DNA of 64,000 nucleotides from NCBI RefSeq assembly GCF_011397635.1, contig NC_064759.1, forward strand, positions 17,198,428 to 17,262,427, in the 5' to 3' direction. Positions 26,603-60,000 of the stretch are shown here, one piece after another. The notes beneath the pieces are model-generated. The model did not search any database. It was not told the origin of the DNA and worked only from the letters and a program-made list of their open reading frames with translations. The translations under genes were made by a program, and so were the position numbers. Every line of letters begins with the position of its first letter. Positions within the stretch are counted from its first letter, which is position 1. The stretch comes from Epinephelus fuscoguttatus. Lineage: Eukaryota; Chordata; Actinopteri; Perciformes; Serranidae.

Positions 26603-26604
26603 AT

Positions 26605-27934: not shown

Positions 27935-28053
27935 TTAATTCCAATAAAGTCAACGCGTGTTCTAGACTGTGTCTCCTTTGTTTTGCCGAATACATTTTGG
28001 AAAAAATTAATTAACAGTGTAAAGAATTACACAAACATTCAGTCATACTTCAA

Positions 28054-28363
28054 CTTAAGGAACCCCAAAATCCAAAAATATATGTTTTCCTCTTACCTGA
28101 AGTGCTACTGATCAATCTAGATTGTGTTTGGTGTGAGTTACAGAGTGTTGGAGAGACAGCTGCCTTCACTCCAATGTAATGGAACTAGATGGCACTCAGC
28201 TTGTGGAGCTCAAAGTGCCAAAATGCATGCGTTGAGCACAGAAGGCAGACATCTCTACAGCCGTTATCTCCAACACTCACACCAAAACAATCTAGATTGA
28301 TAAACAGCACTACAGGTAAGAGGACAAAAAGTATTTTGATTTTGGGGTGAACTGTCCCTTTAA
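28054..28363. mobile_element. fold-back MITE with long inverted arms
   Basis: The left arm (ccccaaaatccaaaaatata ... ttacctgaagtgctactgat, caatctagattgtgtttggt) is mirrored at the right (accaaaacaatctagattga ... tgattttggggtga). The arms cover about 100 bp each, typical of a miniature inverted-repeat element. Confidence 0.7.
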
Positions 28364-28746
28364 GGAGGGAGAATGAAATGGACAAATATTTTTGAGCACA
28401 ATAGTACTGGATGTGTACAGTGTAATATCATGTATGCTGTGAAATAACTATCAACTGCATTTCTTTCACAGATGTTGGTGGCTCATTCTGTCCATGAATG
28501 ACTCTGATACAATGAACATTTGAGCAATAACATTCACAACCACTTCTATGTGTCTCAAGATTAAAATGTTTGGTTGTTTTTTGATTCAGCGATTAAATTA
28601 TGGAAAAAATGGTTAAAATCAGTCGTGTCAAATATTTTTGTCTTTGACCTAGTATGCTGTAATGTGCAAGGCTATCAAAAAAACAGCATGCATGAGGAAA
28701 AAAGTAATGTCTGCAAACTTATTCTATTTCCACGCCCCAGTATCTT

Positions 28747-28821
28747 GATCCTGCTTGGATCTTCATCAGGTAAAAATTGATGAAGATTTTGACCTGACGA
28801 AGATCCAAGTAGGATCGAAAC
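28747..28821. repeat. 25-bp inverted repeat built on a CTGAYGA-GATCC-GGATC motif
   Basis: The left arm 28747-28771 and right arm 28792-28816 are reverse complements with two mismatches and a 20-bp spacer. The right arm reads CTGACGA, then GATCC/GGATC around a 5-nt loop, then GAAAC. The order resembles a hammerhead-ribozyme core but has an extra A before the stem. Confidence 0.7.
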
Positions 28822-30625
28822 TTTGGGTGTGTTCCAAATCACATGCTTTTTCTCTCTACTTTTAATAGGTTCTGCAGCTGCCCTTAAAAAGTAAAACTGT
28901 TGCATGCCCAATGCACACAATCGGGACACACTACTGCCTCATAACATTACACCCTGAACTTTGACCCTCTTGCTTTTATATGCATAACCTTAGAGATAAA
29001 AAAAAAATGCCACTTACTGAGTTCGCCAGATCAACCCGGAGAGCTCTGCTGTTGTTGCAATGTATGAAGTTTAACTTTAAAGTTATAACACGGATTGTAG
29101 AATTGTGACAGTGAAATCACATCTGCACTTTTCTGTCATTGTTATTTTTATAGTTATGTCCTTATGTTTTTTGTAATATTTATGATTATTTTGTTCACTT
29201 AAACAATCAATATTCCCATTATTACTGTTTGACCCGTCATCAGTCACTTGAATGCACTGTCATCCATCATTGCGACTTCTGACAGCCATCAATCAGCTGT
29301 CAATAGAACATCCTGGTATTTTTGGCACACTGCATTTCTCCTACTATCTATTGGGATACTAAATCTTTTTCTGGCATATGTATAGTATGGTAGTATGGGT
29401 ACTGGAATGCACAGATTGTCTTCATTAAACTTGTGAGGCATGGAGTATGTGTTTTCTCTTATCAAACAATGAATTCAGGCTGATAAGAACTACTTGAAGT
29501 GAGCTAAAAATACTTTGCATGACAGCAAACCTCAAACACAGCAGTCAGGTACAGGTATATTAACTGTGCCACCCCACCATAAAACGACTCAATTTTATCT
29601 TTAATAAACCCCACTGCACAGTGTTGTACCATTAGGTCTTTGTTGCCCTTCCATGTGCTTTACAGCGCTTATTATATCTACTTGAATTGCTGTCATTGTT
29701 TATGATGTACGATGAGGAAATACTCGTTCTTCTGTGGCTGAGCTCAAAAGAAAATCAAAATCACTCATTAAAGCCCGCTGACAGTTGGGAGGTAAAACTG
29801 GAAGACCGTTGATGATGATTCAAAAGACACCTATGGCATATTCTTTAGAGCTATTTGACAAATTCAGATGTTTAAATGATAGTCTTACTATGAAAACAAA
29901 TCTCCTTTGTAAAGAAATAGGATATAAATTCTGTCTGAACTACATTAAACAAAGACAGAGAAAGAGAAACGTCCAGCAAACAAACAGATGGTCTGTTGTC
30001 CTCCATTAAATCCTGTTGATACTGTTATTAATAATGCAGTAATTATAAAATAACAGTAACAGCAAAAATGTCTGTATTCCAAAATGTGCTTAAATGAATT
30101 TGTATGGCCTTTAAATAAGAAATATTAAATGCGTTTCTTTTTTGTTGGCAGTCTTTTTCTGAATTTTCCAATGTTTATTCCACCTGCACTGTGGGAGGAC
30201 GTGTTGTGTAAGCCCACAAGTATATTTTGCATAAAAGAACCAACTCCTCACTGAATGGGTATTTGCTTTTGTTACGCTTCAGAGACATACAGTACACTTA
30301 CAAAATATCCATCCATCCCATCCTCTGGTTGGTTAAAAGCTGCAGAACCACTGAGGTTTACAGTAAATGGACACTCCTTGGTGTGGACCGATGTGGACCA
30401 GGGCAAAACAAGGTGTGGCCAGGGCTGTGAGGTGGTGCTTGGTGATGGTAGGGGTAAGCATTTACATCATGCAAACAGAAGGCTTGGGGGAAGTAGAGCA
30501 AATATTTGCTGATCAAAAGGCGACTGTGACTATACAGTATCGCCAGATTTGAATTTATCCCAGCCAGGGTGAGGGCCATTTAGCCAGCAAGGAAGCATCA
30601 AACCAAAAAGAAACTGAAGAGTGAA

Positions 30626-33600
30626 ATGGGGTCTCCAGTTGTGTTTGTTCTGATCCTGGTTTCGACAACCTTTACAGCAGGTAAGTCTGAATTTTTATCA
30701 CATTGATTCAGTTCAGATGAGAGCCAGTTTATAAATCTTAATGATAATTTTTTTTTTAAACCTGCTACTTGCTTTGGCTGGTGTGCAGATTATAACTTCA
30801 TTTAAGGGTGACTGAATCTGTTCCTTGCTTTCTGTTTCTAGCTGCAACTAATAAGACAATATATCCCTCTGAGGACCCGTTACCAGTGGGCAGTACAGTC
30901 ACACTTTTCAGCCGGAACACTGTCACTACAGGTGCATGGCTGTTTGACAACGACATCATCGTGATCATATTCCCAGGAAATGAAATCATAAGTGACAATT
31001 GGAGTGACAGGGTTACATTCAATTCAACCTCTTCATCGTTGACTATAAGGTCACTACAGCTCGAAGACTCTGGAGTATACACGTTACAGGCAGTGAATTC
31101 TTTTCGTGCTCAGTTAACACTGTCAGTCCAAGGTAAGGATACTTTCTCACATTCTACTAATGCTTACTAATTGATCAGGCATGCATAGCCTCTCCATTAT
31201 TGTGTTGAAAAACCTGATATCATAAAAAGAAAAAAACACCAACGAGTGAGTATTTGCACACTCCAATGTCTACTTCTGTGTTTGACAAGTTTTGATTTGC
31301 AAGACAAAGAATAAAGCAGTGTGGGAGTGTGTGACTGTTAAGGTCACCTTGCCTTTGGCAACAGCTAGCAGAGCAAGTCAGCTTTACTTGAGTCCTAAGT
31401 TGGTTTCAGTCTTCATATTAAATATTTCATGAAAAATAAAAAAAACTTCAGTCTTCTCATTTTGTATAAATGTCATCACTAGATGTGCATGAACACATAT
31501 CGATACATAATGGAGCTGGTCCAATTACTGTATTAGTCCAAATCTAGTCTCTTACTCAACGGAAGTCAGGTATGGTTTGAAATAAGACTACATCTACCGC
31601 AGCTCAGCTTTGCTTTGCCTGGGGGGCACTTTTGCAAAACGAGAGGAGGTCAGAGGCTAGTTGCAGCAATGTGGCACAGGTCAGGTGTACACAGGCATTT
31701 CTAGGACTTGAGGATATTTGGGGCTCACCCCAGACCTATGTAGGGGGGTTCAGGGGATCCTCCCCTTGCACTTTTTTTGATAAACAAGCTCTGTTTTGAA
31801 GCATTTTAATCCACTGTGACACCTTATTAATGTTACAAGAACAAAACAACAAAATCCAAGTGAATTTATTTTCGTGGTGAATTAGAAAATGTTTGAGGAG
31901 CCACCTGGCACTCTGTTGTGGGCCTTCGGGCTGTAAGTTGAGTATCACCGATTCAGCTGACGATGAATGTTCTCATGCACTGTTCGTACATATACCTATG
32001 AAAGTAATGCACCAGAATTTGTATGTAACTGGCATAACCATGAAGGCTGCGATCACGTGATAAATGAGCTGACGGGAGTAAAGATAAATATAAATATATA
32101 GTATAAAAAGGGAAAGTCTGCAAGAGTTAGGATGGAGTCTTGGATGAGTCAAACGAACACACGACTTCCCCCGTGGGAAAACCAAGTGTATTTTGAGTTA
32201 TTTTAAGGTGTGTCACCACCACTGTTTTTTTTTTTACCTAAACCTAACCCAGGTAACTTTACTTTTTTAACCCCACCCTAAGTAACTACATTTCCAAATT
32301 GAAACCACGCAACTTTACTTTCCTAAATCTGACCGATGTCACTTTACGTAAAGTATGTAACATGACAATGCCCTACCATGATTCTTTTCCTAAATCTAAC
32401 CTACGCAACTTTACTTTTTCAAATCTAACCTATGTAACATTACTTTCCTAAACCCAACTTAAATTGCTTAACTTTCTCAAACCTATACATAACTTTACTT
32501 TCTTAAACCTAACCTACGTAACTTTACTGTCTCAAACTTAACCTATGTAACTTTACTTTCTTAAAGCTAATCCATGCAACTTTACTTTCCTAAACCCAAC
32601 CTACATACCTTCACTTTCCCAAACCTATACATAACTTTACTTTCTTAAACCTAACCTACATACCTTGACTTTCCCTAACCTTTGCACAACTTAACTTTCT
32701 TAAACCTAACCTATGTAACTTTACTTTCTGAAACCTAACCTACGTAACTTTATTTTCTTAAACCCAACCTGTGTAACATTACTTTCTCAAAGCTAACCCA
32801 TGCAACTTTACTTTCCTAAACCCAACCTACATACCTTAACTTGTCCAAACCTATACTTTACTTTCTTAAACCTAACCCACATAATTTTACTGTCTTAAAC
32901 CCGGGTCCATGTCATTGGTCCGATAGCCCATTGGTCTGACATCCCATTAGTCCGACGGTCCACGGTGCTGAATGGCTCCCGGCGGGCGTATTTCTACCTT
33001 GATGGTGTGCCGCGACTGGCTCTGGGTCAGCTGGGAAAGGCTTGAAGAGAAGCAGGCTCACAGCTTATGTGTTTGTCACTTTCTTTTTCATTTTAACCCA
33101 CACCATGATCTTTTCCTAACCCTAACCAAGTGGTTTTTGTGCCTAATCCTAACCCGACCTTAACCACAGGGCATCATGATGATTTCGGAACGGACTTCGG
33201 AACAATGGGTTTAATATGGTCGGAACAATAGGCTGTCGGACCAATGGGCAGTTCCCCTTAAACCCAATCTGCATAACTTAACTTTCCCAGATCTAGCCTA
33301 CGTAACTATACTGTTCTAACTCTAACCTACGTAACTTTATATCAAATACGTAATGTGATGATGCCCAACCATGATTATTTTTTCTAAACCTAACCAAACG
33401 TAATTTATGTAACTACATAACGCAACAACACCCAACTGTGATTCTTTTGCTAAACCTAACCAACATTGCTTTACATTCCATCCCTAACCTACATAACCTT
33501 ACTTTCCCAAATCTAACCTACATAACTTTACTATCCCAAATCTAACCTACATAACTTAACGTTAAGTACATTACGTGACAACAACCAACCATGATTCTTT

Positions 33601-36600
33601 TCCTAAACCTAACCTTAACAGTGAAGAGGCTAATTCACTGGACACGAAACTGTTTGATATCAACCGTTGTATGTGCATTTTCATAAGATATCCATTGTAT
33701 GAGGATATGTTGGAATGGGAATCTCATTAGTATTGATCATATTTAGCTATGAAACAAAATATTTAACCCGACAATGGCACTAGATACAATGGTAAGGTAT
33801 CAAAGTGATAACAATTTATCCTCAGGAGGACATGAATATTTCTGCCAAGTTTATTGGCAATCCATCCAATAGTAATAATTTCAGTCTGGGCCAAAGTAGT
33901 ACACTCACTAACCATCAGAACAACAGGTAAATATTGCCATCCAATTTAGGCTTGAATCATTATATATGTCCCGTTTCTATGTCTGCCTGCTGTTGAGAGA
34001 AGACACAACATTGCTTGTCCACTGCAGTTCCACGTTTCTACAAGACTTGACAATTTTTTTTTTCCTTTTTCTGCAGTGCCTATTTCAGGTGTGACTCTGA
34101 GGGCAAATGCAATCAACCTGGTGGAGTTCAATGACACAGCAGTTCTTACGTGCTCTGTGCTCAACGGCTCGTCCCTGTCTTATGCTTGGCTGAAAGGGGA
34201 CTCTGAGGTCACAGAGGGTGGGGGAGTACAGTTCAGCAATGGAAATGCCACTCTCACCATGGTTGGGGTGACCCGCTACGATGAGGGGCCATTCAGGTGC
34301 AATGTGTCCAATGGTTTAGGCCATGAAATCAGTCTCCCTGTGCGTCTGAACATCAGCTGTGAGTTAACAATATTGGCCTACTGTATGTATTTTAAAAACT
34401 CTAATAACTCAATATCAACCCGTAAAACAATTTTCCTCTTGTTGCTTCATCAGATGGTCCACATAACACATCAATGACGATCATGCCGATGAAGTCCACG
34501 TACAAAACAGGGTCTAACATCACGCTGTCATGCTCAGCAGAGTCCAGCCCTCAAGCGATGTTCCGGTGGATGTTTAATTGGATGTACCTGAATAAGTCTG
34601 GTCCGCTGCTTCAACTAGAGAGGGTTACAGTGAGCGACTCCGGAACTTACAAGTGCATAATTCACAACACAGTGACGGCCAGGTTTAGCAGCGAAAGTGC
34701 AATGATCAGGATTGTGGGTAAGGTTGGATTTGTAGTTTTTTCGAGGGTCCCTTATGTGTATTTGATTTTGTTTCTCTCAGCAAAGGCACTTAGAATATTC
34801 TTCAGCAGACAAGTTTTTTCCTTCAACTTATTATTATGAAGTTAGTGTCAATTGCACAGCGTAATGGCTATAGAATAAATGACACCATCTGCATTTACAC
34901 TGAACAAAAATATAAACGCAACACTTTTGTTTTTGCTCCCATTTTTCATGAGCTGAACTCAAAGATCTAAATCATTTTCTATATACACAAAAGACCATTT
35001 CTCACAAATATTGTTCACAAATCTGTCTAAGTCTGTGTTCGTGAGCACTTCTCCTTTGCCGAGATAATCCATCCCACCTCACAGGCGTGGCATATCAAGA
35101 TGCTGATTAGATAGCATGATTGTTGCACAGGTGTGCCTTAGGCTGGCCACAATAAAAGGCCACTCTGAAATGTTCAGTTTTATCACACAGCACAATGCCA
35201 CAGATGTCGCAAGTTTTGAGGGAGTGTGCAACTGGCATGCTGACTGCAGGAATGTCCACCAGAGCTGTTGCCCGTGAATTGAATGTTCATTTCTCTACCA
35301 TAAGCCGTCACCAAAGGCGTTTCAGACAGTTTGGCAGTACATCCAACCGGCCTCACAACCGCAGACCACATGTAACCACACCAGCCCAGGACCTCCACAT
35401 CCAGCATGTTCACTTCCAAGATCATCTGAGACCAGCCACCCGGACAGCTGCTCCAACAATCAGTTTGCATAACCAAAGAATTTCTGCACAACCTGTCAGA
35501 AACCGTCTCAGGGAAGCTCATCCGCATGCTCGTCGTCCTCATCGGGGTCTCGACCTGACTGCAGTTCGTCGTCGTAGTCGACTTGAGTGGGCAAATGCTC
35601 ACATTCGATGGCGTCTGGCACGTTGGAGAGGTGTTCTCTTCACAGATGAATCCTGGTTTTCACTGTTTAGGGCAGATGGCAGACAACGTGTGTGGCGTTG
35701 TGTGGGTGAGCGGTTTGCTGATGTCAACGTTGTGGATCGAGTGGCCCATGGTGGCGGTGGGGTTATGGTATGGGCAGGCGTATGTTATGGACAACGAACA
35801 CAGGTGCATTTTATTGATGGCATTTTGAATGCACAGAGATACCATGACGAGATCCTGAGGCCCATTGTTGTGCCATTCATCCATGACCATCACCTCATGT
35901 TGTAGCATGATAATGCACGGCCCCATGTTGCAAGGATCTGTACACAATTCCTGGAAGCTGAAAACATCCCAGTTCTTGCATGGCCAGCATACTCACTGGA
36001 CATGTCACCCATTGAGCATGTTTGGGGTGCTCTGGATTGGCAACTTCGCACAGCCATTGAAGAGGAGTGGACCAACATTCCACAGGCCACAATCAACAAC
36101 CTGATTAACTCTATGTGAAGGAGATGTGTTGCACTGAGTGAGGCAAATGGTGGTCACACCAGATACTGACTGGTTTTCTGACCCCCCCCAGATGCCCCCA
36201 ATAAAGCAAAACTGCACATTTCAGAGTGGCCTTTTATTGTGGCCAGCCTAAGGCACGCCTGTGCAATATTCATGCTGTCTAATCAGCATCTTGATATGCC
36301 ACACCTCTGAGGTGAGATGGATTATCTCGGCAAAGGAGAAGTGCTCACTAACACAGACTTAGACAGATTTGTGAACAATATTTGTGAGAAATGGTCTTTT
36401 GTGTATATAGAAAATGATTTAGATCTTTGAGTTCAGCTCATGAAAAATAGGAGCAAAAACAAAAGTGTTGCATTTATATTTTTGTTCAGTGTAGATTGGT
36501 TCTCTATAAGCCTCGTTTTCATTAAGCAGTTCTGTCTGCTACCAGGTACAATTGTTTGTTGAATACAAACCTGGAACTGCAGCTGGTTAACTGAGGGGGA

Positions 36601-39600
36601 GAGAGCTAGCAAACGGCTAGCTTGGCTCTGTCCAAAGATAACAAAATCTACCTAACAGCAGGTAGGGCTGTGTGCCAGATTTTTCTTGGCTGTGACTTCC
36701 TGACATCCTGTTGTCACCATGTTGCCAGGCAATCAACTGAGATGTTTTTACACTTCGGTTTTTGTGTGTAGTCTAATAAACAAATGAGACAAAGCGTAAC
36801 AGAGTGTTCTATTCTACATGAATTAATTAAGTGTTAAATTAATCACACATTAACTCCACTTGACGCTCTGTTGCTCCGTCTCCTCAGACCAGAGCCACAT
36901 GTGGCTCTTTAACCCCTCTCCAGTGGCTCCCTCTGGCTGTAAAAAAAATTAAATCACATGGAAATGAAACACGTTTTAATTATTACAACATTTTAAATTT
37001 TAGCTATCATTGTTAGGCCTAATGAAATTCCTACACACACTCTTATACGAAGAATAAAAAAAAAAGTTTTTAACATTTTGTCAACTACAACTACAGCCTG
37101 GCACCTTTCTAATAAATGCTGCTGATGTCATATCTAAATGAACTTCAGGAGTGGTGGCTAGTCTTGAGTGTTCCAAGCAAGGCTGGCTATGGACTCCAAA
37201 TCCAAAAATGTAAAAGTCTGGGAGGAAAATAGAGACATTAATAATGAGTGGAGGGATTAATTTGCCTTCACCACCAAATTTTACTGCTCATTTAGGCATA
37301 TTAGTAATGTTGATTGTGGGTGCTTTCACACCTGCCCTTTTGCTTTGGTTCAATCAAACTCAAGTTTGTTTGCAAAATTAGTCCCTGATTTGGATCAAAG
37401 CAATTTCAAACGGTACTTTCCAACAGCGCTCTGAATTCATGAACAGTCCACTTTGTGCTAGAATGCACTCTGGCATTGTGAGCCAGACTAACTGTGCCCC
37501 ACTGTTTCCGGTCTCTATGCTGAGCTAAGCTAATCGGCTACTGGTGGTTGCCATATACAGTACTTAGCGGACAGACTTGAGAGTGGTACCAATCTTCTCA
37601 TCTAACTCCCAGTGAGAAAGTTAATAAATGTCAGACAATTTTTTCAAAATATTCAGTGGCGTATGTCATACCCACTGAATTCACGTACATGTGTGAATTC
37701 AAATTACTCAATTACTTTCTTCTTCTTCTGTAGAGCCAATAGTAGCAGTTGTGGTGAACCACACAGGTAGACTACCAATCCTTCATTACCAGTTCATTCT
37801 GGACTGTCAAGTGACTGGAACTGTTGCCAGCATTTGGTGGTGGAAGAATGGTGAACCTATCACTGCTGACAATACAACATTCATTGACCAGGACAACAGG
37901 ACACTGACTCTCAACCCAGTCCAACTTTCAGATACTGGAGATTATCAGTGTCAGGCTTTAAATGCTGTGAGCAACATGACCAGCAGCCCCTACACGGTTA
38001 GAGTGAACTGTAAGTATCTTAATCTCTTTTTCTCACTTATGTCGATACACACAAAGAACAGAAACATTGAGAAATTTAACCTTCTTATTAATTGTTTGAC
38101 ATGAAAAGATGGCCCAATGAAACCAGTGATTGTGGGGCCATCCATGGCTCTGATGGGAACACTGCAAACCCTCAACTGCTCAAGCGCCTCTTATCCTCCC
38201 AGCCACATCAGCTGGCACTTCAACAATACCCAGCTGGCTACCACCTCAGAGTTGACGATTGGACCGCTAACCCTTAATATGAGTGGGATATACACCTGCA
38301 TGGCCGTCAACAACATCACCTCCAAGAACAGCACTGCCTACACGATGCTCTCTGTTTTGAGTAAGTTACTGCATAGTTTGACATTTTAAGCAAGCAAACA
38401 TTTAGCTTAGCTTAGGCGGAGGAAATGGCTAACCTGGCTCTATCCAAAAGTAGAATAAAACACCCACCTGCACTGACAAAATCACAACTTGAGTCTGAGA
38501 GGTGCTCGTAGGCTAATTTTCTTACCTTTGGATACAGCAAGGCTGACTGTTTTCCTCTGTTTCCACACTTTATGCTAAGCTAAGCTAAGCTAAAAGAAAA
38601 AAGCCTCCTCGCTGTAGATTTATACTCAGCAGTCATGAGAGTGGTATGAATGCTGACTTCAAATAAAGCAAATATTCCCAAAATATTTATTTAGTCTGTC
38701 TCAAAAAATAAAAAAAATTGCAAAACCAGTAAGCCAGTGCATCATATACGTTTTGGAGTTTTGCCACCATCCTTTTATTCTCCGCAGCTCCAGTGACCAT
38801 GGCGTTAGTAAAAATTGTCAGAGCTCAGCCAATCCAGAACCACACTTTGACTCTGACCTGTGAGACAGCTGGAAGTGTGGACTGGATCATCTGGATGTAT
38901 AATTCATCCCCACTGTATCCTGACAGCACAAGACACTTCTCAATGGATAACGCCACCCTCACCTTCAATCCTGTCATGAAATCTGACGATGGGAACTATC
39001 AATGCGTAGCTTCCAACCCATTCAGCAGATTATCCAGTCAAAACTTCACGCTGGAGGTTTTTTGTAAGTACTCACCATGACGTCTTACCCTGAGGACTTT
39101 TTCAATCTGCCAAAATAATACATTAATTAACATTAACATTAATACAGCAGTTTATAAAAAGAAATTCTAAAAAACATAGGAAAGTAAGTAAAAGTAGTAA
39201 TACCACAGTGTGAAAATACTTTGTCACAAGTGAAAGCCTCTTTTTCAAAAGTATAAGCCAGGGGCCAGCGACCTTTACCATCAAAAGAGCCATTTTTGAC
39301 CAAAAATAATCAAAAAAATCTGTGTGGCTCCTGAGCCGCAGGTAGCCCAACCCTGGTATAGGCATTGAAATATTCTTGTAAGTGCCAAAAGTAAAAGTAT
39401 TCATTATGTAGAATAGCACATTTCAGAATGATATTATTAGACTAATTACTGATGCATTTATGCGTTCACCTCCTGTCTTTAAGAGGCTTAAGCAAAAAAC
39501 ATGCAGTTGTTTGTAAAAATGTGTTGTTTTTGCCCATTGTATTCAAAATATTTCTGCATCCTGGCATCCCTAAGCAGTCTTGAAATTGCATATGACTGGA

Positions 39601-42600
39601 AAGCTGAGACTATTTTGGATTTAATGAGCCCAAATTTATTCATATGTGATGATGTTAGCCCCCATATTAGCCATTTCATTGTAATGAGACCTTTTTTTTT
39701 ATGGATGACACTGTATGAAATGACCTATTGTAACCTCAACTGAGGATAATACAGCCTCATGAAACTCTACAACCACAAACTATAGAGCTCGGACATTCAG
39801 AGGATGTATGGCCTGCATAGGTATCATGACAATTTGAGGGTTTCGCAGCAGTTTCCACAGTAGAAGTGCTCACCATCAAATTGCTGATACATGCAAGTCT
39901 ATCAGAAATCTCCAAATGTGAAAAGTTTTTGATACCAAATTATTTCCTATGGTGGTCCTCAAGGTCTATGTTTTAATTTGGTATTTTGGAGGGATTTTGA
40001 CTATTTCTATCAATTCTTGAGTGGTCAAAAATACTTAAATTAAGCACAAAACTGTGTAACTGAACCAAAATTCCTTAAAAAATGTACACACCTAACTGAA
40101 CATGTCATCATAATTTACTGGTTGATTATATTTTACATCTGCAGAGTAACTAGTAAACTAAAGCATTTCAATAAATGTAGAGAAGTAAAAATGTAAAGTA
40201 CTTGACTCTGAATTGTAGTGGAGTAGAAGTATGAAGTAGCTTAAATACAGGACTTGTGTAAATGTATCTGACGACCACACACTTAGTGGAATAATCAAAA
40301 AAATATCAACTGAAATGAACCAACATTCGATCGTTGGTGTCAGTATATTCAAAGGTGGACTTCTCCATTCATGTACACCTCTGTGTTGTATAAATGTTTT
40401 CAGTGAAGATGATCTAAAGTAATATCTGTGTGTTTAGATGGACCACAGATGCCAACTATCATGGGTCCAAATGTGGTAAGGACGGGAGACAACGTCACAC
40501 TCAGCTGCTACGCATCATCAAACCCTCCCAGCTCCTATAAATGGTTTTTCAATGATACTCTGGTGGCCAATATGTCTGAGTATACCACACCTCATGTTAC
40601 CAAAGACATGAGTGGGATGTACACCTGCGTGGCCTACAACAACATCACCCACAAAACCAGCACTGCATACACAAAGCTCACTGTTTTTGGTGAGACTTGG
40701 GTCGCAATTTCAATGTTTCTGTAAGAATGTATGTGGCCCAGGAGAGCACTAAAAATGGTTGTGTACTTTGTTTCCAGATGGATTTGAACATGTGCAAGTA
40801 GAACCACCCATGGATCCTGCCATAGAAGGTGATATTTATCAGCTAACATGCAATGTGACTGGACCTGTTGGGCATGTTTACTGGATGAAAAATGGTGAGC
40901 CACTGCATGAAGACAACAGAACTGTTTTCCACATGGAAAACAAGATGGTCACCTTCAACCCAGTGGAACAAAACGACACTGGAGACTACCAGTGTGTGGC
41001 TACCAATGCGGTTTGGAACATGACCAGCCCTCCATACAGGCTCCTTGTGAACTGTAAGTAACTTTTAAAGGTCAAATGTAAAAGATTTTGGGGGATTTAG
41101 TGGCATCTAGTGGTGAGGATTGCAGACTGCAGCCAGCTGAAACTTCACCTTGTTAGAATTCCTTCAGTGTTCACTGTCCAGATTGTTTTTACTGGGAGCT
41201 GAATTAACTGCAGAGGTCTCTTCCTCTCCAAAGAAACAGACCAGGTGATTAAAACGCTGGGCCTGGGCCTGTTTGCCCAGCACCTGCTAATGTGTGCTCA
41301 CCTACTTTCTCTGATAACTGAATGTGTGCTCACTTTGTTTCTGATCCAGACGTTCAGGAGGTTTTCACCTTGAACCGAATTGTCCACAGACGTCTCCTAC
41401 CCTCCAAAACAAACAGACCCGGTGATTTAAACCAGTAAAACCACTAAATAAAGCAGTTTCATGTTACAAATCAGTGATTCTCCGACACTCTTTGGCATGT
41501 CGAAGACGGGCCTCTTACCTAGCACCTGCTTATCTCAAGATCTAGTCATTTAGGAGGTTTTTGGCATAAATTGATTTATCTGCAGAGGTCTCTTCCTCCC
41601 TAAAAAGTGGATCCAGTGATTTAAACTGGCAAAAACACTCAATAAAGCATATTCACGTAAAAAAAATCAGTGTTCTCATTGGGCAAGGGCAGCTAACTAC
41701 AGTAGCCAATGTGATAACACGAATGGCGCTATTTAGAGCAGGTGTTCGGTTTGTCTGTTTTGGTGGTTCAACATGGCGAACTCAGTAGACGAGGGTCCGC
41801 TCTTATTATTTTATGTAACATTTCTGCAGTATGTCCCCCTAAATCCTACACACTGGACATTTTAAGGATTTATTTCACTGTAACTAACTTTTTTTTAACC
41901 CATAGTATTTGTAGTTGATGAAATACGGTACTATGCAAACTTATTTTCTCCTTTGCTGTTTCAGATGGACCAGAAAAACCTGTGATTTATGGGCCAGATT
42001 TTGGTGAGACAGGACATAACGTGACCTTCTCCTGTTCTGCCATGTCGGTGCCTCCCTGTGAGTTCAGCTGGTTGTTCAATGGCTCCAGCGTGGGCAATAA
42101 TTCAGAGTATACGACGGAGCGTTTGTCTTTTAATATGAGTGGAGAGTACACCTGCGTGGCCTCAAACAACGTGACGAAACAGATCAGCAATATCACCAAG
42201 ATGCTCACAGTCATTGGTAAGAAAATTCAGAGGACTCCTTCAATGCATGTTCATGTGACTGTACAACTGATCAGATACTGATTTCTGCTGTGCTCTCTGT
42301 CCACAGAGGCAATTGAGTCAGTGATGATCAAAAACAACACAGTCCCAATAAACTCGGAGAACTTCACTCTCACCTGTGACGTTGTTGGGCCCTATGACAC
42401 AATCTACTGGATGAAGGACAACAAGTACCTCGCCATGACAAACTCCAGCTCACAATCAAACATGTTCTACCACGCTATAAACAACACACTGCACTTCACC
42501 CCAGTGACGATGGACAATGATGGGGTATATCACTGTGTTGCTATCAATCAGGCTGGTCCACATAGAAGCCCCAAATACAACCTCTTGGTGAACTGTGAGT

Positions 42601-44700
42601 GTTGTAGGAAATGATGGAGAGTGTTTTTTTTTTTTTACTTGTTCAGTTCATTTAAACTTGTTTTAAGGTAATCAATATTCATTTCATTTTAAATGTTGCA
42701 TGACAGTGTATTAAAACTTCCTTAGCTTCTTCCTTAGCAGAACAGTGGAAGGAAAAAATAGAAATACATCATTTGACCGGCTGAAACTGTCACATTATTC
42801 ACACAGCACTAAATGAGACAGATAATCTGTGAAAGAAATTATATTCCTCTGCTTATACTCCATTGCCTTGTAGCGCTCCTAATGGCATTACCGCACCTGA
42901 ACAAAAACAACCAGTCAGAGCCGAGGAGTCTCTAACACAGCTGTTAATTATGTCGATCACTGCTTGTGAACTGCAGTCAAAGTGTAAAGCTAGGCAGCGC
43001 TGATCAAATATGAATCAAGATTTTGTTACTGCATTGCATCACCTCAAGTGTTTTCATTAACATAATTTAGTGTACTGTTTAGCTATAAAATGAGAAAGTT
43101 GCTTCGGCTGGTGGGTGCTACTTAGTACTCAATCGGTCGTCCTTTTCCAACATGGCGGCTGGGGATAGGTGTAGATTTCAGGAAGGATGCAGTATATTTA
43201 CTGTAAGAGTTTGACCAGAAATACCTGAGTGAGTTTTTATGCCTCTGCACCAGTGACAACCGTGGTCAGAGGCTTTATGTTTTCTAGGGTTGTCCATCCA
43301 TCCTCTATCCGTCTGTTCATCCATCTGTCTGTCCCACTGTTGTGAACGCAATATCTCAAGAAGACCTTGAGGGAATTTCTTCAAATTTGGCACAAATTTC
43401 CATTTGGACTCAATGATGGAGTGATTAGAGTTTGGTGATCAAAGGTCACTGACCTCATCCCTCTTATTCTTGTGAATGTGATATCTCAATAACATCGCAA
43501 GGAAATTTCTTCTCTGTGCAGAACGATGAACTGATTAGAATTTAGTAGTCAAAAGTCAAGGTCACTGCGACCTCACAATCCTGTTTTCAACCACAACTCA
43601 AGAATTCTTGTGCTAATTATGGCTATATCTTACATAAATGTCTGATAGGGAAAAATGATGAAGTGATGACATTTTATATGCGAAATGTCAAAGGCCAGCT
43701 TCACTGTGACATCATAATGTTCCGCATGTTGCCCTTACTCAACATCATAACTCGGGAACAAAAGGGGAGACATTTGGTCAGATACTATTAGTAGCACTAA
43801 TCTTTTGTGCACACCTTGACACTGATGATTTTATAGATCTTCTGTGCTGTCAGGTTGAAGATGTGTGTGAAGCATCCATGATTTCACAGATGTAGATGTA
43901 ACCTGTCAGTGCAACCTGACGGAGGCATGCAACCGCGAGGCAGTAATTCTAGTTTTGCAATGCTGCTCAGAGCAAACGTGGTTATAGGTTTGAAAAAGAC
44001 TGAGCATTTTGTGCCAAAGCAATTCATAACTTTATTGTCCATCACGCTGACTCACTCCGTCTCTCTGTGTTTGCAGATGGCCCTCTGAATGTGAAAATCT
44101 CTGGTCCATTCATAACAGGAATGAAAAACTACGTGACCATGGTGTGCTCCGCTGATTCTCGGCCCGATTGTAAATACCAATGGTTCTTCAAAACTCAGTC
44201 GTCAGTGGCTGTAGCGACTGGCCCTGTTATCACTTTCCCTTTGAAGAAAGAGAATGAGGGAACATACATATGTAAGGCGAGGAACCCTGTGACCAATATC
44301 ACACTGTACAAGACTCAAACCTTCACTTTCTCAGGTGAGTGATCCTTACTGCTTGATCAGCTGACAAGCAGAAATATGAACGGAACATGTGCCGATGTTT
44401 TGACAGGATCATTTTAAAATGTTTTTGTTAATTTGTGTTTTAGTTTCTGTTGGTTGTATAGTGTGGAATATTTGACAAACATAGATGATTACAGCCACAT
44501 AAATAATTTTGTCAGTGATCATATCAGAATAGTTGTTATACAGTTACAGATATCTCATGCTGTATTAAATGCAACGTGATTTATTTGTCATTATTTCCTC
44601 CCCTCTCTCCCTCTTAGCCTCCGCCCTCCACCTCCCATGCCGAGGCAGTCTGATGTTGATGGGTGTGTTTGCTTTGTCTGTCTCCAGGCTGTTGAGCTGA
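30626..44700 (+). CDS. long CEACAM-like glycoprotein: N domain, five A-B Ig pairs, GPI-type tail
   Basis: Thirteen exons, all phase-1 junctions: 30626-30680 (signal), 30842-31132 (N), 34077-34358 (A1), 34454-34717 (B1), 37734-38009 (A2), 38109-38360 (B2), 38788-39063 (A3), 40438-40689 (B3), 40778-41053 (A4), 41965-42216 (B4), 42307-42594 (A5), 44077-44334 (B5) and 44618-44700 (TGA). The protein is 1034 aa. The N domain (residues 19-115) is V-like without Ig cysteines (ITSL-type strand then LEDSGVYTLQAVN). A exons are 276-288 nt and B exons 252-264 nt; most B domains begin YGP and have MSGxYTC, and most A domains have DTGDYQC or similar. All ten C2 domains keep C...W...C and many N-glycosylation sites. 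The last exon encodes a hydrophobic stretch (SLMLMGVFALSV) a few residues from the end and no cytoplasmic region, so a GPI anchor is likely. The acceptor of B2 (tgacatgaaaag) has a poor pyrimidine tract. The layout equals CEACAM5 (N-A1B1-A2B2-A3B3-GPI) with two more pairs. Confidence 0.85.
32237..33613. repeat. 29-bp minisatellite with telomere-like CCTAACC core
   Basis: Roughly 35 diverged head-to-tail units of about 29 bp, of the form acctaacctatgtaacttta plus ctttcttaa, fill 32237-32900 and 33256-33613. They are interrupted by another element. It lies in the N-to-A1 intron of the long CEACAM-like gene. Confidence 0.85.
32905..33256. mobile_element. TIR element nested in the minisatellite
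   Basis: The left side (cattggtccgatagcccatt, ggtctgacatccc) and the right side (ggctgtcggaccaatgggc, gtcggaacaatagg) are inverted repeats built from CCCATTGGTCCGACA-like units. The interior is GC-rich, non-coding, and has its own cctaaccctaacc run. Ends are approximate. Confidence 0.6.
34898..36491 (+). mobile_element. Tc1/mariner element with 275-bp inverted repeats
   Basis: TA dinucleotides flank the element (34896-34897 and 36492-36493). The left arm 34898-35172 and the right arm 36217-36491 are near-identical inverted repeats starting cactgaacaaaaatataaac. The total length of 1594 bp and the central transposase frame are typical of a complete Tc1-like element. It lies in the B1-to-A2 intron of the long CEACAM-like gene. 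The high arm identity suggests recent insertion. Confidence 0.93.
35195..36118 (+). pseudogene. Tc1-like transposase with one in-frame stop
   Basis: A 308-codon frame starts MPQMSQVLRE. It has an N-terminal helix-turn-helix region (MSTRAVARELNVHFSTISRH) and the catalytic motifs FTDES (first Asp), DNARP (second Asp) and SPIEHVW (Glu), i.e. a DDE domain in order and at normal spacing. A single TAG at 35903-35905, just before HDNARPH, splits it; everything after stays in frame to TGA 36116-36118. I see no frameshift, so it has been inactive only a short time. It cannot make full-length enzyme but the element could be moved in trans by a relative. Confidence 0.9.
37490..38665. repeat. two fragments of a fish repeat ('gctaagctaagctaa' type)
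   Basis: Fragments at about 37490-37640 (tgctgagctaagctaatcgg, gagagtggtaccaatcttct) and 38390-38665 (tatgctaagctaagctaagc, gagagtggtatgaatgctga) are the same family, placed in the introns before A2 and before A3. Exons A2 and B2 lie between them and are not repeat. Confidence 0.6.
41065..41865. mobile_element. non-autonomous TIR element, 801 bp
   Basis: The left end ttaaaggtcaaatgtaaaag and right end cctacacactggacatttta are imperfect inverted repeats. The interior repeats the phrase gcagaggtctcttcctc and is non-coding. It lies in the A4-to-B4 intron. A related left end is at 16510. Confidence 0.6.
42880..43160. repeat. small interspersed repeat in the A5-B5 intron
   Basis: Phrases accagtcagagccgaggagt, aacacagctgttaattatgt and cttgtgaactgcagtcaaag are typical of a common fish repeat. 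Ends uncertain. Confidence 0.4.
43235..43955. repeat. copy 3 (most complete) of the three-copy interspersed family
   Basis: Runs from tgcctctgcaccagtgacaa to aaccgcgaggcagtaattct and includes aatttcttcaaatttggcac and aaagtcaaggtcactgcgac. It matches 20450-21010 over most of its length. It lies in the A5-to-B5 intron of the long CEACAM-like gene. Confidence 0.65.
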
Positions 44701-45505: not shown

Positions 45506-47309
45506 TCATATGGGGACACTGGGACCGTACTTCCTGGTGTGAACGCCCCTCTTCTGTTTCCAGCTGCACTTCTTCAGATTCTTATTTTTCTTCCTCTGGC
45601 AAAATGCTTTCACTTGTGGTTTGAATAAATCCACACAGATAAAGCAATAGGGTGAGAAAATAACAGGTTAAGTTCACAGTCCAAAATATTTTAAATTGTT
45701 TAGTTAACACTTTTGAAAAGTCCCTGAAGAGTTTATAATCACCTTTCACCTTTAAGGGGAGACGCCTTAAAGGTGAATTTCCCCAGCTGATAACTTACAG
45801 AAAACCAGTTATTTTTTATATTCCAAGTTTTCTGAAATGTTATGTTTAAATGCGCAAATGGTCCATTATCATACAAAAATGTGCTGATTTACATACATTT
45901 CCAAAACAGGAATCTGAACATTGGATAAAGCCAAGTTCAAAGTTCTTTTTTTTTTTTTTTTAACTTTGTCATATTTATGTCAAAGGTTTTTACAGAGGGG
46001 ATTTTGGATGTCTCTTTTTATCACTATATAAATCAAAAAACACTGTCAACAGCTATAAAAAAAATCTATTTTTGCCATGTTTTTCAGAATAAAATGTTCT
46101 ATAAATCAGGCTATGAATGATACATGAACGAACTCCTTGGTAAAAACCTTCAAAACATAAATAGGAATAAAACTGGAAAGTCTGGTGTATGTAAGCGCTA
46201 CTGAAGTGGGGATTTTTGGATCGGAGTATGAGGAAAAACTCATTTTGAGAAAATGGCCTTCAAAATCATCATTTGTAAAATCCCCCACATTTTCAGACAA
46301 ACAAAGAAGACACACGTGTAAAAATTTAACCAACAGATATCACCTTAAACTTCCCCAGCTGAGTCGTATCGTATTTTCTTAAATGTGTAAAAATTCAAAT
46401 TAGGCGTTATCTATTTAAATATACACTTTTACATACATTTCCAAAACAGAAATCTCAACTGAACTAAACACCTAAATGTGTATTTTGGATGTTTTCTTTC
46501 CACTAGTCTGAAAGAAGACATGTTAAAGTAGCCCAAAATCTCAGAACTGACCAGTACATAAACTGTATTTTCACCTCTGGTTTCTCCCCTTAGTTTGAGT
46601 TACTGAATACAAGACTGACTTACTTGTGACTGATTGTTTTACTTTAATATTTTATAAACCTGATACGCTATATGTAACTCACATTTTCCTTGTTTGCCGT
46701 TGCGTCTGCCAGACTGGTGACAAGGGCAGCGTGCATTCACCGTCTCTCCTCCCTTTCCTGGGTGACCATATGAAAAGACAAAAGAGTAGATAGGGTTAGG
46801 ACAATGCACTCAGCTAATGCTGAGGCTCTGCTTACATATAAACTGCAGATAGCTGACTAGATATGTGTTTTGTTCACAGTATACACTTCTTTCACCTTTA
46901 CAGTTACACAGCCTGACATGGTGTCTGGGGATGTGGATTGGATTTGCAGTTGTCATGGGTTTTCCAACCGCAGACGCTACGACATAAATGATATCAAATA
47001 GAATAGATTAATTGCATTTATTAGGGTCAATTAAGTGCAAATGGAAATACAAAACTTTAGATATTACTGAACCACTCTTGTGGAAAATGTGTTTTTAATC
47101 ATTAATCTTGCATACCATCAGTGAGTGTGCTGACAGTCAGGGATTGTTCCCGTGTCTCAGGATCACCTGTAATGCACACACAGGATGTAAGATTACTTTT
47201 AAAACTCATTATCTTGTCTCACTCTGATATATAAGAACACAATACCTTGGCTGTGATCAGTAAATACAAGCAGTCCAAGAACCACCAACATGAACATCCT
47301 TAATCCCAT
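45506..47309 (-). CDS. cxcl17: CXCL17-like secreted chemokine-type protein, 98 aa
   Basis: Four exons on the minus strand: 47246-47309, 47116-47166, 46683-46757 and 45506-45612 (TGA 45506-45508), all joined in phase 1. A signal peptide (MGLRMFMLVVLGLLVFTDHS) is followed by a short acidic/Ser-Thr linker, then NARCPCHQSGRRNGKQGK, AFCQRKKNKNLKKCSW and a basic end that stops ...GPSVPI. The pattern CxC-C-C, strong basicity, four-exon layout and small size fit CXCL17; human CXCL17 also has a CPC motif and ends Leu-Pro-Leu. The C-terminal Val-Pro-Ile fits the Xaa-Pro-Yaa ending that, as I recall, is proposed to activate the receptor GPR25. Synteny is decisive: human CXCL17 sits beside CEACAM1 near PAFAH1B3 and PRR19. 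The last acceptor could be at cacaag (used here) or 6 bp further on (tgaaag); both keep the frame. Overall similarity to human is too low for sequence alone to prove orthology. Confidence 0.78.
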
Positions 47310-51880: not shown

Positions 51881-54359
51881 TCAGTTCTCGGCAGGTTTAT
51901 CTAGCATGGACTTCAGATGGGCGTGCAGGAGTTCGCACACAACCTGGTAGCCCTTAGTAGTCAGGTGAAGGTAATCGTACATGTCCTGATGGGAGATGCT
52001 ACCATTGGAGTGGACGAAGCCTGGGTCTACGTTGAGGAAAGATGCATGGGGGAGGGACGATACAGCCTCCTCGACCAGCTTGTTCACCTTGGCATTCTTC
52101 TCCCGCAGAGGGTTTGGCAGTTTACCTCTGGGCAGTATACCCTGGAAAACACATGTATGGATGTTACGGTTTGAAAGATGGAACGCTCCTTAGCTTTTTT
52201 TTGTAACAGTACCAGAAATAAAAAAGTATAAAGTAAGTAAGTATAAATACTATTTACTATCTGAAAATTCAGCCACATGTCAGTTGAAATGCCCATGAAG
52301 TTTTAGCCTCACCAAACACACAACACAGGGAGTTCAATTTCAGCCCTACCTCCAACAAGTAAAGACTATAAATGTAGAGTGAAAAGTAGCGTACCATAAA
52401 TCTTAACACCCAAGATTTTATTTGCTTCGATCACTGAATGGGACGGACCTTTAATTCCTTTCGCAAAAAATTGTTGCTTGACTAAAATGGAAAATGCTAT
52501 CACATTGTTTATTTAAACCTGGTGTTGTGTCAGTATGGCACCAGCATCTCCCTTTATCCTCTTAAAACAATATTCACAACTTGGATTGATTTTTATTTGA
52601 CACTGTTTTGATTCTTTTGTTAGGTGGACCCTAACTGACTAAACAAATATAAGGATGCGAATATAAGGATACATATTCAGACCATGTCAGAAGTAGAGAA
52701 TCAGCGCCTTTTCTTCTCTCTTGTTTACCATGCCGGTAAATCTGAATGAATTATACTTACTACTTACTATACTAGCTCATGGTTTCGGTAAAATTAACTG
52801 AATGACTGATTTGTGGAGAATCTAACAGAGCTAAGGACATGTAGCATATCCACGTTGACAAAAGTTTAAACAATTATATTTATATGCGCAGTCTGGGAAG
52901 CTAACAAACATTAGCAGGTAGCCAATGAACTGTGAGTTTTTATATCCAAAGAACTAATATAAAAATGAATTGCCTCGCAGTGTCAATGGCAACCAGACCA
53001 TTTATCCGTCAAAACATGTAGCCACACCCGGCTAGTAAAATGGACTTTAGTTTTACAGCATCTCCAAACAGTTCACACACATTCTAGTAGTCTTTGTGTC
53101 TCAAAGCTGAGATGGAACTTAAACGGGTGACATCACTGTGCAATTTGATGGTTGTATGAACTTCACTTGTCATTTTCAACGGACATGTGGGCAACTAGAT
53201 TAAAACTTCCTTTAAGGAATGCATCAGAAAAAAAACCTACAAGTATGAGCGTCTTGGCATTGGGGATCTTGTTCTTGATGACTTGGACAATAGCCATGAT
53301 GCCTCCACAGACCTGTTCAGCGGTGTGACCATGGTTGTTAGTGCCTACCCACAGCACTACAACCTACAACAACAAAAGAGAAAGGCTAGACTGAGCACAT
53401 GTCATTGACAGTTTGGGGTCAGCGTATCTGGAATTTAGATTTTTACCACAAAGCACAATGACTCTACTGTGTGAATAAACAAGCATGATCATGTTCTCTA
53501 TTTTTGGCAGTGATTTGGACCTTTGGGCTGATGTTATCCAGTTCACCGTTGCACAGTCTCCACAGCACATGTTGTGTTGCATCGCCACCCACCCCAAAAT
53601 TGAGGGCATGGAGAGGAGAGAACAGCTGCCTCCATATCTGCAGACAAACCACAACAACAAAGCGTCCAGGTGTTGAAAGCCAAGCTCACCCAATTTCAAA
53701 GCGAGCACAGCTGATGATGAGAACAAGACAAGCTGTCAAACTTTGTACACAAACAGGGGAGAGTGTGTGATTTGTGTTTTACCGCAAACTGGTGCATGAG
53801 CTGAACAAGAGAGTCTCCAACAAACAGGACATCAGGCTCTTTGTCTTTGCTGTCAGACACAAAGCGGTTGTGCTATAAAGAGACAAAGTAAAAGGACAAA
53901 TACGCAGACTCAGAAATTATTTTTGACTGTACATGAGAACTACAGACACATAAAAAATGTTTTGTATTTATATGGAAACTGGAAGACATTAGCTTGGAAA
54001 CCACATAAAGTATTTTCTCAGTGGATCAAATATCAGTGCATACTCTCATATCAATCTGTCAGGATTGTTTTAAGCTTTCAGTACGGTTATATATCACCAC
54101 AATACATCACTACTGAATTATTTATGTTTTGTTCTTTACTGTAAATTCATAAAACTGAACATTAGCGACAATGCAGACCGTGAAAGCCACATAATCCACG
54201 GCTGATATACTGTAGCCATGTAAACAAAGGGAAAAAGAGATAGAAAACTCATAATAATAATAGTAATAATTCACACACCATAGACATCCATCGTCCATCT
54301 CCCTGGGTGTCTTCACAGGGAGTGGGTGTGGCGGCGGGGTTTGGGTCTTCTGCACTCAT
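51881..54359 (-). CDS. pafah1b3: platelet-activating factor acetylhydrolase 1b, catalytic subunit 3
   Basis: Five coding exons on the minus strand: 54279-54359, 53783-53872, 53521-53637, 53241-53363 and 51881-52141 (stop), all phase 0, giving 223 aa (mammalian paralogs 229-231). It is an SGNH/GDSL hydrolase that removes the sn-2 acetyl group of PAF as a cytosolic dimer, together with LIS1 (PAFAH1B1). Family blocks are all present: FVGDSL with nucleophile Ser48, NFGVGGD (Gly74), VGTNNH (Asn105) and DYLHL with Asp193 and His196 completing the triad. SLVQLMHQ, NNHGHTAEQV and DPGFVHSNGSISHQDMYDYL favour the B3 over the B2 paralog. The donor of exon 4 is ctt|gtaggt, chosen because it gives LILGILPRG. 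It is head-to-head with prr19, as in human. Confidence 0.95.
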
Positions 54360-55920: not shown

Positions 55921-57088
55921 GAAATGACTATATATATTGCATATATCTTCTTTTATTGACAGAATGAGTTAATATAGTGAGCTCTCTTTTACATAAATTG
56001 GATTTGTTTTTCACAATCTATAAAGTGAAGGGCCTTTGACATGGTGCACATGGAATAAATTGTGCAAAATGTAAAACACCTTTCCTGGAAATAGTTGCCT
56101 CAAAATTATTTGCAACTCAAATTAAAGTCAATTCCCCTGGATAGTTTTTTTTTTTTTTTTTTTTTACAAAGTTTCCCACTGCAAAATGACAAGATGCCTG
56201 TGAGCCTGTTTGAACACATTGTGATGTGAGTCCTGCACTTTAGAAGTGCCATTTTGATATCACCTCTGCCCAAGTAGATTAGATATGTGTCACCGTAGAG
56301 TGGGAAGCCCAGACCCACTGCCAGCTCTGTGGATTTTGTCTGTGTATGAATCGTGTCTACAGTGATAAAATCCCCAGAGACTGTGGCTGTGGTAAACCAG
56401 CAGCTGTTCTGGTTTATAATGTAAAAGTTCATCTAAATGCCATCAACAGCTGAAAGCCACATGTGCATTTTTTGCTAGAACCTCTGAGCTGCACTGTTAT
56501 CAGCATTTGTTTATGATCTTAAAGTACTGCTGACTTGAACTGAACTGCAAATATCTGTGTGGTTTCTGTGAGTCTTATCACAGAGCACAAGCTGCTGCGA
56601 GACAGAAATAATAAAGGGGTCAATAAGCGTTGCTATGTAGCCGTTACCATGCATTACATGGTTGATTGGTAAGGGCTGAATCTGTTTTATTGCAGCTGAA
56701 TTTTTGACAAAATTAGCCTTGGTACTAATAAAATACTGTAAATGCTGCATTTCAGCTGTGCAGAACTTTGCAAGGTGTGTATTGTTTAATTAGTGGTAAT
56801 GTTTTTAAATGATGCACACATTAGTTGCCTCAAAAACTGATCCTCAATTGAGGGTTCTGTGTGAATTTAACATGAGCAGAGTTAATGCTCATGTAAAGCA
56901 AGTGTGTAACTGTAGCCTACATGTCAACTGCTGTCTGTCTCTGCTAAACTATTCACAGCAGAGACTCTGCACTCTCTTGCATGAAAAAATAATCTACCTC
57001 ATTGAAGTTCCCCAGCTCTCTTATTTATATCTTCTACAGAATTACAAATGACTAACTGCAGTTTTGTTTCTACAGAATCTGATGCAGC

Positions 57089-60000
57089 ATGAGCCACGTG
57101 TGTGGCGGGGCTTTACCAGACAAAGAAAACATCTTAAATGTTTTCAACAAGCAAATAAAAACAACAGATAAGAAACATTGCTCAGTGAACAGATTCACTG
57201 TAGACTGCAAATGCTCAAACCATTATTGTATGACAGATGGGCAGCAGCACAAACTTAAACGACTGAGGAGTCGCAAGGAGAGGAGTCAGATGAGAGGTGG
57301 TGGGAGAGAGGCCTCCAAGCCCAAATCACATCACCATCACTGCCATCGCCAAAGCAGTAAAGATGTAGCACATTCCCAGAACTGCTGTCACAGTGGCTGT
57401 CATTGCTCTGCAAGAAGAGCTGCACCGTTTCCGACTGTCATTCCTGCCGCACAGGAGCCCAGTATCATCACAGACAGTCGACTGATTGGACACCACGGTC
57501 TGTTCAACCATGAGGTGAAGTCTATCGACATTGAACGCTTGTTAAGTGAGCAGAGCAAACTGGAGAAAAGCAGAGAGCAAGTTCAAGAAAAGAACAATGC
57601 TACTTCACATCCATCTTCAACATCTCACATTCCTTCTCCATTCTCCACAAATGATTTGGTGGGTGCTGATAATGATGATTGCCAGAAGACACAGAAGAAA
57701 GTCAGTCAGGGATCAGATATCACTCCCGGCCAGAAACCACAGCAACAGCTTGATCTTTCATCTGAAAGTTTTAAAAGCATTCTCTCATCTAAACACAGCT
57801 CGCCCCCTGTAGTGATGACGGAGAGCAAGAAGAGCAGCCCTGTCATGTCTGAAAAGGGCAGAGAGTCACAGCTGACTCCCACTGTTGTCAGAGCAAATGT
57901 GAAGACACTGAACAGAAAGGTAAAGCGTCATGTGATTTCTACTCCAGAGCACACCCCAAAGAACCAGTGTTTGGAGTCTCCTGTCCACCAAACACGACCT
58001 CATGGTCTCAGCCCAAGCCCACTTCAGCTCCCCAGCTCACACACCGCTGACAGCTTTGACATACAGCAGAGAAGACAACACCCTGACTGTGTATCTAAGT
58101 CTGTCAGCGCACTGGCAGCAGGTTTGTGTGACTGTCTGCAGTTCCCGCATCTGAGGAGGAGAAACCTGGTGGCAGAGAGCAGGGAGGTGTTGTTGAAAGC
58201 TCTACGGGAGAGGCATGGACCCTGGCTTCAGGAGAACCTCCTCGAGGTGCAGCGGTGCCTCAGCTTTGGTGCGGACGCCGCAAAGAAAGTCCAGCATCAG
58301 GAGCCAACCATGATGGATGAACTCTTGTCTCCAGGTAAGTTCTAAAATATTAGACAACTCTGGGATTCTCATAAAAATAAAATATGGTAATTTATCAATG
58401 ATTATGGTTGTTTATAATTGCTAATAATTTTATTGTATCTTTTAACATATCTCAATCACAAAATTCTTCGTAGAGATATAATGGTTCCCAGTTTACATAT
58501 AAAATGACTAATAAGTTAATTTTTTCCAGCATTATTGATGTTCAAGGATTCCTATCGATAACTTTTTACCTCCATTATTGACAGTGCTAGTTGTCCATAT
58601 TAAAGCTGCCCTACAGAGCCAAATGCTCCTAACATTTAATATGTTAATTTTAAACTCTGATACAGAACTATTAATACAGATGGATAACTGATACCTCATT
58701 CAAAACCACCACAAAAAGAATTTAAAAAAAGTCCCAGGCACACAAAATACAATAGATTTTTCTTTTTTTATCAACAACCTCCACACAGTGCTGGTACAGA
58801 AAAAGTTACTGAAGACACGCCTCCAGTCACGTGGTGGGTTTGTTGCTGTAGAGAATGCGGTAACAGCCACAAGTTGAGGACCAGTTGATTTTCTTTCCCA
58901 TTGTTTCATCTGTGCAGCCATAGGTTGAAAATCTGATTGTAGATCTGCTTATCTCGTAGATTTGGTACTTTTTATTCTATCGATGTACAGTTAACAGGGA
59001 TCGTGTCGTTGTAAGTGTGGTAATGAAAATGAACTCCATTCAAGTATTGATGCTTTTACCACCTAGGTCATTGTTTACATCTGTGTTTACCAGTTTGCAG
59101 TCTTCTTCCTTGCCTTGGAACATTACTACATGTCTTTGCATGTCAAGTCAAGCCAAAATTGTATTTATATAGCCCAATATTACAAATCGCTGTTATCACT
59201 GCCATCTGTCCATCATTCAGAATAGCAGGAATGTGTATTGTGTGTCCTGCATGCTCTGCATCTTCCAAAGTTAGTACTTTGAGTGCTAAATTTACTCTTT
59301 TTGTGTTCATGGAACGTGTTTCTCTGTTTATCTTCAGTGGAGGGATACTAACAGTGTCATAGTGCTTTGTAGACTACTTGCACTGATTACAATTTTTTTG
59401 GCCGATCCCGATTTCGGATTTGCAGTGTTTGGACGGCCAATAACGATTTTGGCTGATTCCGATTTCATTGTTTTTTTTTTACAAACCACTTTACAGCACA
59501 CAAGATATTGCAAAATTTTCTATCTTTCCTTTATGAGAACATTTTAACCAAGATGCAACCAGCTTTTCAATAATCATCTCAAACAAACAAAAACAGTGAC
59601 ACAGGTTAAGAAACATTTTCCTATTTGCTCAAATATAACTTCAGGTACAGTATTAAAATAAATAAGTAAAAATGAAAACACAGATAAATAAAATAATATT
59701 TCTTGGTGTATAGCATTTGTGGGTAATTTCTTGAATAGATAAAAAAGTAAAAATATCTCCTGTGGAAAATTCACACAGATCTTCACATCTACAAAGTGCA
59801 GTGTCATGGAAATTCTTATTTTAACAACTAGAAAAAAGGTGCACATTCTTCGGCACGTGGACACGCGTTTCGTCAGTTTCAAGCAGCACAGTGCACAGTT
59901 TAACACGGACAATTAACAACGTCTCCTTCTCTCTTTTGATATGTGAATGATGAAGGTGAGAAGCTGCCCATGTTTCACTTCCTCACATCGCCCAAGCTGT

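Follow-up and report, generated by a model that had tools for sequence, protein, structure and literature searches.

The protein CXCL17 was still called mammal-specific in January 2024, in a study (PMC10792014) that also sets it apart from the canonical chemokines even at the loosest clustering threshold, so that for CXCL17 the word chemokine denotes an activity and not an ancestry. While it shares its name and its chemoattractant activity with the canonical CXC chemokines, it differs from these in contacting its receptor by its C-terminus (PMC12905490). The closest described system is that of the zebrafish (Yu et al., Biochem J, 22 January 2026, PMC12905490). Dr-CXCL17 (zgc:158701, UniProt B0S594, NP_001138293) is a protein of 109 aa encoded by four exons, with a 25 aa signal peptide and an 84 aa mature part of pI 10.5, predicted disulfides on Cys 47, 49, 60, 62, 80 and 91, the C-terminus Leu107-Pro108-Ile109, and a structure model of low confidence. 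Its gene is flanked by pafah1b3 and ceacam1, with cnfn nearby, an arrangement similar to the human one. Dr-CXCL17 acts on zebrafish GPR25 with an EC50 of about 100 nM, and this activity is nearly lost without the last three residues, which are needed for binding, for activation of the receptor and for the chemotaxis of transfected cells. The zebrafish paralog CXCL17-like (si:dkey-112a7.5) is also a GPR25 agonist, and is likewise small, secreted and basic with six cysteines and an Xaa-Pro-Xaa (XPX) end, but has its cysteines in the order CXC-C-CXC-C and lies on another chromosome with ponzr and ugt5g1 as neighbours. CXCL17 homologues were also reported in several other ray-finned fish (PMC12905490). 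Judged by title, this was the only paper on fish CXCL17 among the papers on CXCL17 and GPR25, in a search with bioRxiv and most subscription journals outside its scope, and none of the literature on CXCL17 and teleosts from 2024 onwards had a title concerning fish CXCL17.

Here we describe the corresponding locus of the grouper Epinephelus fuscoguttatus, in a window of 64,000 nucleotides (the whole stretch of DNA analysed). The gene lies between a cluster of CEACAM-like immunoglobulin (Ig) genes and the pafah1b3 and prr19 genes (Table 1), in the neighbourhood that an earlier note on this DNA had already recognised. In the CEACAM-like cluster, Ig families matched all nine of the scanned ORFs, seven of them above the curated cut-off, and eight further ORFs were taken for Ig by eye. 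When ORF 22602-22943 was compared with solved structures, the top match was biliary glycoprotein (E 5.2e-05), a synonym of CEACAM1, and CEACAM1 or CEACAM6 made up 9 of the 21 structure matches, the others being Ig proteins such as titin. On the other side, the ORF assigned to pafah1b3 scored best as the alpha1/gamma subunit of PAF-acetylhydrolase IB, the product of PAFAH1B3. The cnfn gene was not found among the 10 ORFs of at least 50 aa between cxcl17 and pafah1b3, which gave a single weak match, to a DNA-ligase zinc finger, below the cut-off.

Table 1. Coordinates, strand and supporting evidence of the features at the grouper cxcl17 locus, numbered from the first letter of the window.
Feature	Position	Strand	Evidence or remark
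CEACAM-like immunoglobulin gene cluster (flank)	168..44339	+	Ig-family matches
Possible poly(A) signal, AATAAA	45312..45317	-	189 nt 3' of stop; motif match only
cxcl17 exon 4	45506..45612	-	Two cysteines, basic tail, Val-Pro-Ile end followed by TGA
cxcl17 exon 3	46683..46757	-	Carries second CXC (CPC); phase 1-1
cxcl17 exon 2 as corrected	46896..46976	-	ASAVGKPMTTANPIHIPRHHVRLCNCK; 81 nt; carries first CXC (CNC); phase 1-1
Alternative exon 2 of the earlier note	47116..47166	-	GDPETREQSLTVSTLTD; phase 1-1; optional cassette or chance
cxcl17 exon 1, coding part	47246..47309	-	MGLRMFMLVVLGLLVFTDHSQ; putative signal peptide; phase 1 at its end
Possible TATA box, TATAAA	47398..47403	-	94 nt 5' of ATG; motif match only
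pafah1b3, last coding part (flank)	51884..52189	-	PAF-acetylhydrolase IB alpha/gamma 103.8 bits vs beta 87.1
prr19 (flank)	57083..58342	+	Pfam PF15455, 45.3 bits, cut-off 27

Several other features were seen in the flanks. After the first Ig ORF there is a 33-nt minisatellite (3707-3809, plus strand) which encodes GGEGQENTGFS in frame, and ORF 5227-5607 on the same strand matches no Pfam family and contains the sequences LHYVEV and SEYVEL, which fit the ITIM motif; the region 3510-5607 looks like an inhibitory tail of the CEACAM1 type. The cluster also contains a Tc1-like transposase ORF (35156-35902, plus strand, with Pfam helix-turn-helix and Tc3 transposase matches) and, at 32392-33557, satellite-like arrays in three blocks of a 29-nt unit, AAACCTAACCTACGTAACTTTACTTTCTC, and its variants. 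An ORF of 226 codons with a high content of Pro, Ser and Phe and no Pfam match is located 3' of prr19 (62168-62845, plus strand) and is perhaps a further exon of that gene or of a neighbour, while the end of the window is taken up by a Toll-like receptor TIR domain (63481-63999, minus strand) with TLR2 and TLR1 as best matches. A search of the whole window with Rfam gave no matches.

The cxcl17 gene as we model it has four coding exons on the minus strand, with every intron in phase 1 and the frame open throughout, from an ATG beginning at 47309 to a stop codon ending at 45506. The earlier note had these end coordinates exactly right, leaving out the strand, and its four tiny exons are indeed bounded by GT and AG, consistent in phase 1 and at most 107 nt each in their coding part; joined, they give the basic protein of 98 residues (pI 10.35) ending in Val-Pro-Ile that it had announced, with four cysteines at positions 49, 51, 68 and 79. 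What could not be upheld was the use of 47116-47166 as constitutive second exon, as this leaves four cysteines against the six of published CXCL17 and overlooks the exon at 46896-46976. Splice-site strength, scored with splice matrices, was expressed as percentile among the sites of the window and placed the exon 1 donor at 89.0 among the GT sites and the exon 3 acceptor and donor at 98.3 and 98.6, with a weak acceptor for exon 4 (31.8). Read by eye, this exon has a second in-phase AG that would let it start two codons further on. The corrected model has two possible start codons, and the TATAAA upstream of it is one among 12 TATA- or poly(A)-type matches listed for the stretch. Intron 3, the longest of the gene, contains two 43-nt direct repeats (45877-45919 and 46417-46459, 84% identity), which are perhaps remnants of duplicated or mobile sequence.

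Since the published CXCL17 family has six cysteines in the order CXC-CXC-C-C (PMC12905490), the second intron of the earlier model was read for a missed exon, and a frame with the sequence CNC was found there between an AG ending at 46977 and a GT at 46895. With acceptor and donor percentiles of 79.9 and 96.4 for this CNC exon versus 95.6 and 95.3 for 47116-47166, splice strength gives the CNC exon no advantage, its acceptor being the weaker of the two. The two candidates were therefore also compared by the number of phase-1 exons expected by chance in the interval of 488 nt that separates exon 1 from exon 3, using 60 shuffles and thresholds lowered slightly so that both candidates pass. The shuffles predicted 0.002 CNC-like exons (0.06 when the CXC is not demanded) and 0.014 exons like 47116-47166, whereas the window's own density is higher, with 11 CNC-like exons and 27 like 47116-47166 on both strands (real exons counted), corresponding to approximately 0.04 and 0.10 exons per interval, respectively. 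As these expected counts are low, both second exons look better than chance, 47116-47166 less so, and it may be a real cassette. Inclusion of both exons would give a protein of 125 aa, which may be made from some of the transcripts, and some fish CXCL17 homologues have two splice variants according to a figure legend (Figure 1 of PMC12905490).

The gene can also be read in two other ways, both of which turn on the second exon. One takes the 98 aa protein as the main product, the first CXC having been lost from grouper CXCL17 together with one disulfide; the good frame and splice sites of 47116-47166, with an acceptor surpassing that of the CNC exon, speak for this, but it makes no use of a suitably placed exon that is open, matched in phase and carries a CXC, an exon of a quality expected only 0.002 times in the interval, the addition of which brings the length and all six cysteines to within 2 residues of the zebrafish protein, and we thus regard it as very unlikely. 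The other holds that the two frame-neutral second exons are alternatives, with splicing switching between six-cysteine (108 or 125 aa) and four-cysteine (98 aa) forms which all end in Val-Pro-Ile. We consider such a switch unlikely; if true, the receptor-activating tail would be kept constant, while the body that sets the disulfides and glycosaminoglycan binding would be swapped.

The corrected exon set encodes a preprotein of 108 aa with Cys 45, 47, 59, 61, 78 and 89, and thus with the CXC-CXC-C-C order which the 98 aa model lacks; the CPC...C...C pattern of the earlier note is present, but was incomplete without the CNC of the missed exon. The residues between the cysteines number 1/11/1/16/10 with a C-terminal tail of 19, compared to 1/10/1/17/10 and a tail of 18 computed from the positions printed for zebrafish (PMC12905490). 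The protein has a hydrophobic start with a candidate signal peptide, and cleavage after Ala24, at an Ala-Ser-Ala site judged by eye, would leave a mature part of 84 aa with a pI of 10.93 and 22 Lys or Arg against a single Asp or Glu, hence strongly basic like CXCL17. The terminal Val-Pro-Ile has the Xaa-Pro-Yaa form of CXCL17 with large aliphatic residues. The grouper gene and protein therefore resemble Dr-CXCL17 in the pafah1b3/ceacam locus, the four coding exons, the CXC-CXC-C-C order, the basic mature part (84 aa as predicted here), the X-Pro-Ile end, and the length and six cysteine positions, all within 2 residues by comparison with the printed positions. They differ in that the grouper protein is one residue shorter, has spacings off by 1 and ends in VPI instead of LPI, and in the possible extra cassette exon.

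Mammalian CXCL17 (Pfam PF15211) has the CXC-CXC-C-C order, basic charge, X-Pro-X end and a similar neighbourhood in common with the grouper protein, as well as a signal peptide like the one proposed for it (PMC12905490), but has cysteine spacings of 22 and 25 where the grouper has 11 and 16, counted on a human sequence. The PF15211 model, which by its name is built on mammalian members, matches this human sequence at 6.7e-53 and did not match the grouper protein, for which no Pfam family was found at E-values up to 1, the chemokine family profile included. As zebrafish CXCL17 likewise lacks overall similarity to mammalian CXCL17 (PMC12905490), this miss cannot separate fish members from non-members. 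Alignment to the human CXCL17 sequence was also near shuffle level, with the local score reached by 446 and the global score by 122 of 2000 shuffles. As no alignable similarity was found, it is the locus, the architecture and the motifs that support orthology to mammalian CXCL17. Neither the 98 aa nor the 108 aa protein had a match in Pfam or the PDB, the PDB contained no close match to the human CXCL17 sequence (one at E 0.53), and a scan for relatives in non-fish collections yielded 1 pattern match in viral contigs and 55 in bacterial and archaeal genomes, none of which was confirmed.

The likelihood of such a gene arising by chance was assessed with a scan of both strands for four-exon chains with a hydrophobic start, loose splice thresholds, an aliphatic-Pro-aliphatic-stop end and the zebrafish cysteine spacing (PMC12905490) within 3 residues. 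This gave five models in the window, all of them using exons 3 and 4 of the cxcl17 locus, and two of these are the corrected cxcl17, one for each start codon. The remaining three take their first exon from 48494, about 1.2 kb upstream, and combine it with a shortened CNC exon (46896-46912 or 46896-46924) in two cases and with a CVC exon (47167-47217) in the third; they were set aside by judgement, since this first exon is distant from the strongly hydrophobic start at 47309 and sits in an ORF that by eye is repeat-derived. In dinucleotide shuffles of the whole window, neither the three-exon part nor the whole chain was found (0/300 each), with a scan that was written after the CNC exon was known and with thresholds lowered until the observed sites passed, whereas a terminal exon with C..C..XPX was found in 78 and exons 3 and 4 together in 13 of the 300 shuffles.

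The result argues against the view that the gene encodes another kind of secreted basic protein, or is a decayed pseudogene, with a resemblance to CXCL17 in end and cysteines that is due to chance. That neither Pfam nor alignment finds similarity to known CXCL17, and that exon 4 has a weak acceptor, would fit such a view, but the frame passes through all exons without a stop, the chain is absent from the shuffles and the locus is the same as that of zebrafish cxcl17, which together make it improbable. It is still harder to see the gene as the fish-specific paralog CXCL17-like, a reading to which we give almost no weight: the small size, basic charge, six cysteines and XPX end are indeed common to both, but the cysteine order of the paralog is a different one, and the grouper gene has CEACAM-like genes and pafah1b3 as neighbours in place of ponzr and ugt5g1. 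There is very probably a real cxcl17 gene at 45506-47309, and because its locus, its exon count, the length and basic charge of its product, the cysteine spacing and the Val-Pro-Ile end match zebrafish cxcl17, we consider it highly likely that this four-exon gene for a protein of 108 aa is the ortholog of zgc:158701 and, judged by locus and architecture, also of mammalian CXCL17.

As the probable ortholog of zebrafish cxcl17, the grouper gene is expected, by analogy, to be transcribed and its product to act as the zebrafish protein does. Cleavage of the signal peptide after about Ala24 would release the very basic 84 aa protein, the six cysteines of which would form three disulfides; the basic body may anchor the protein to glycosaminoglycans of the tissue, and Val-Pro-Ile at the free C-terminus would enter the Gpr25 pocket and so attract the leukocytes that carry this receptor.

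The earlier note's identification of a fish CXCL17 ortholog is thus supported by locus, cysteine spacing, charge and Val-Pro-Ile end, although its exon set was wrong, while its prediction of an old CXCL17-GPR25 pair in fish was right in substance, but had been tested in zebrafish by 22 January 2026 (PMC12905490). What is new here is one more fish gene of a known family, for which the second exon has been corrected and a cassette exon is possible. A single missed exon of 81 nt can turn a standard family member into an apparent four-cysteine oddity, and locus, exon phase, cysteine spacing and XPX end can jointly reveal such genes in raw sequence. The grouper gene lends support to the published view of CXCL17 and GPR25 as an old pair in fish, with a protein too divergent for profile searches.
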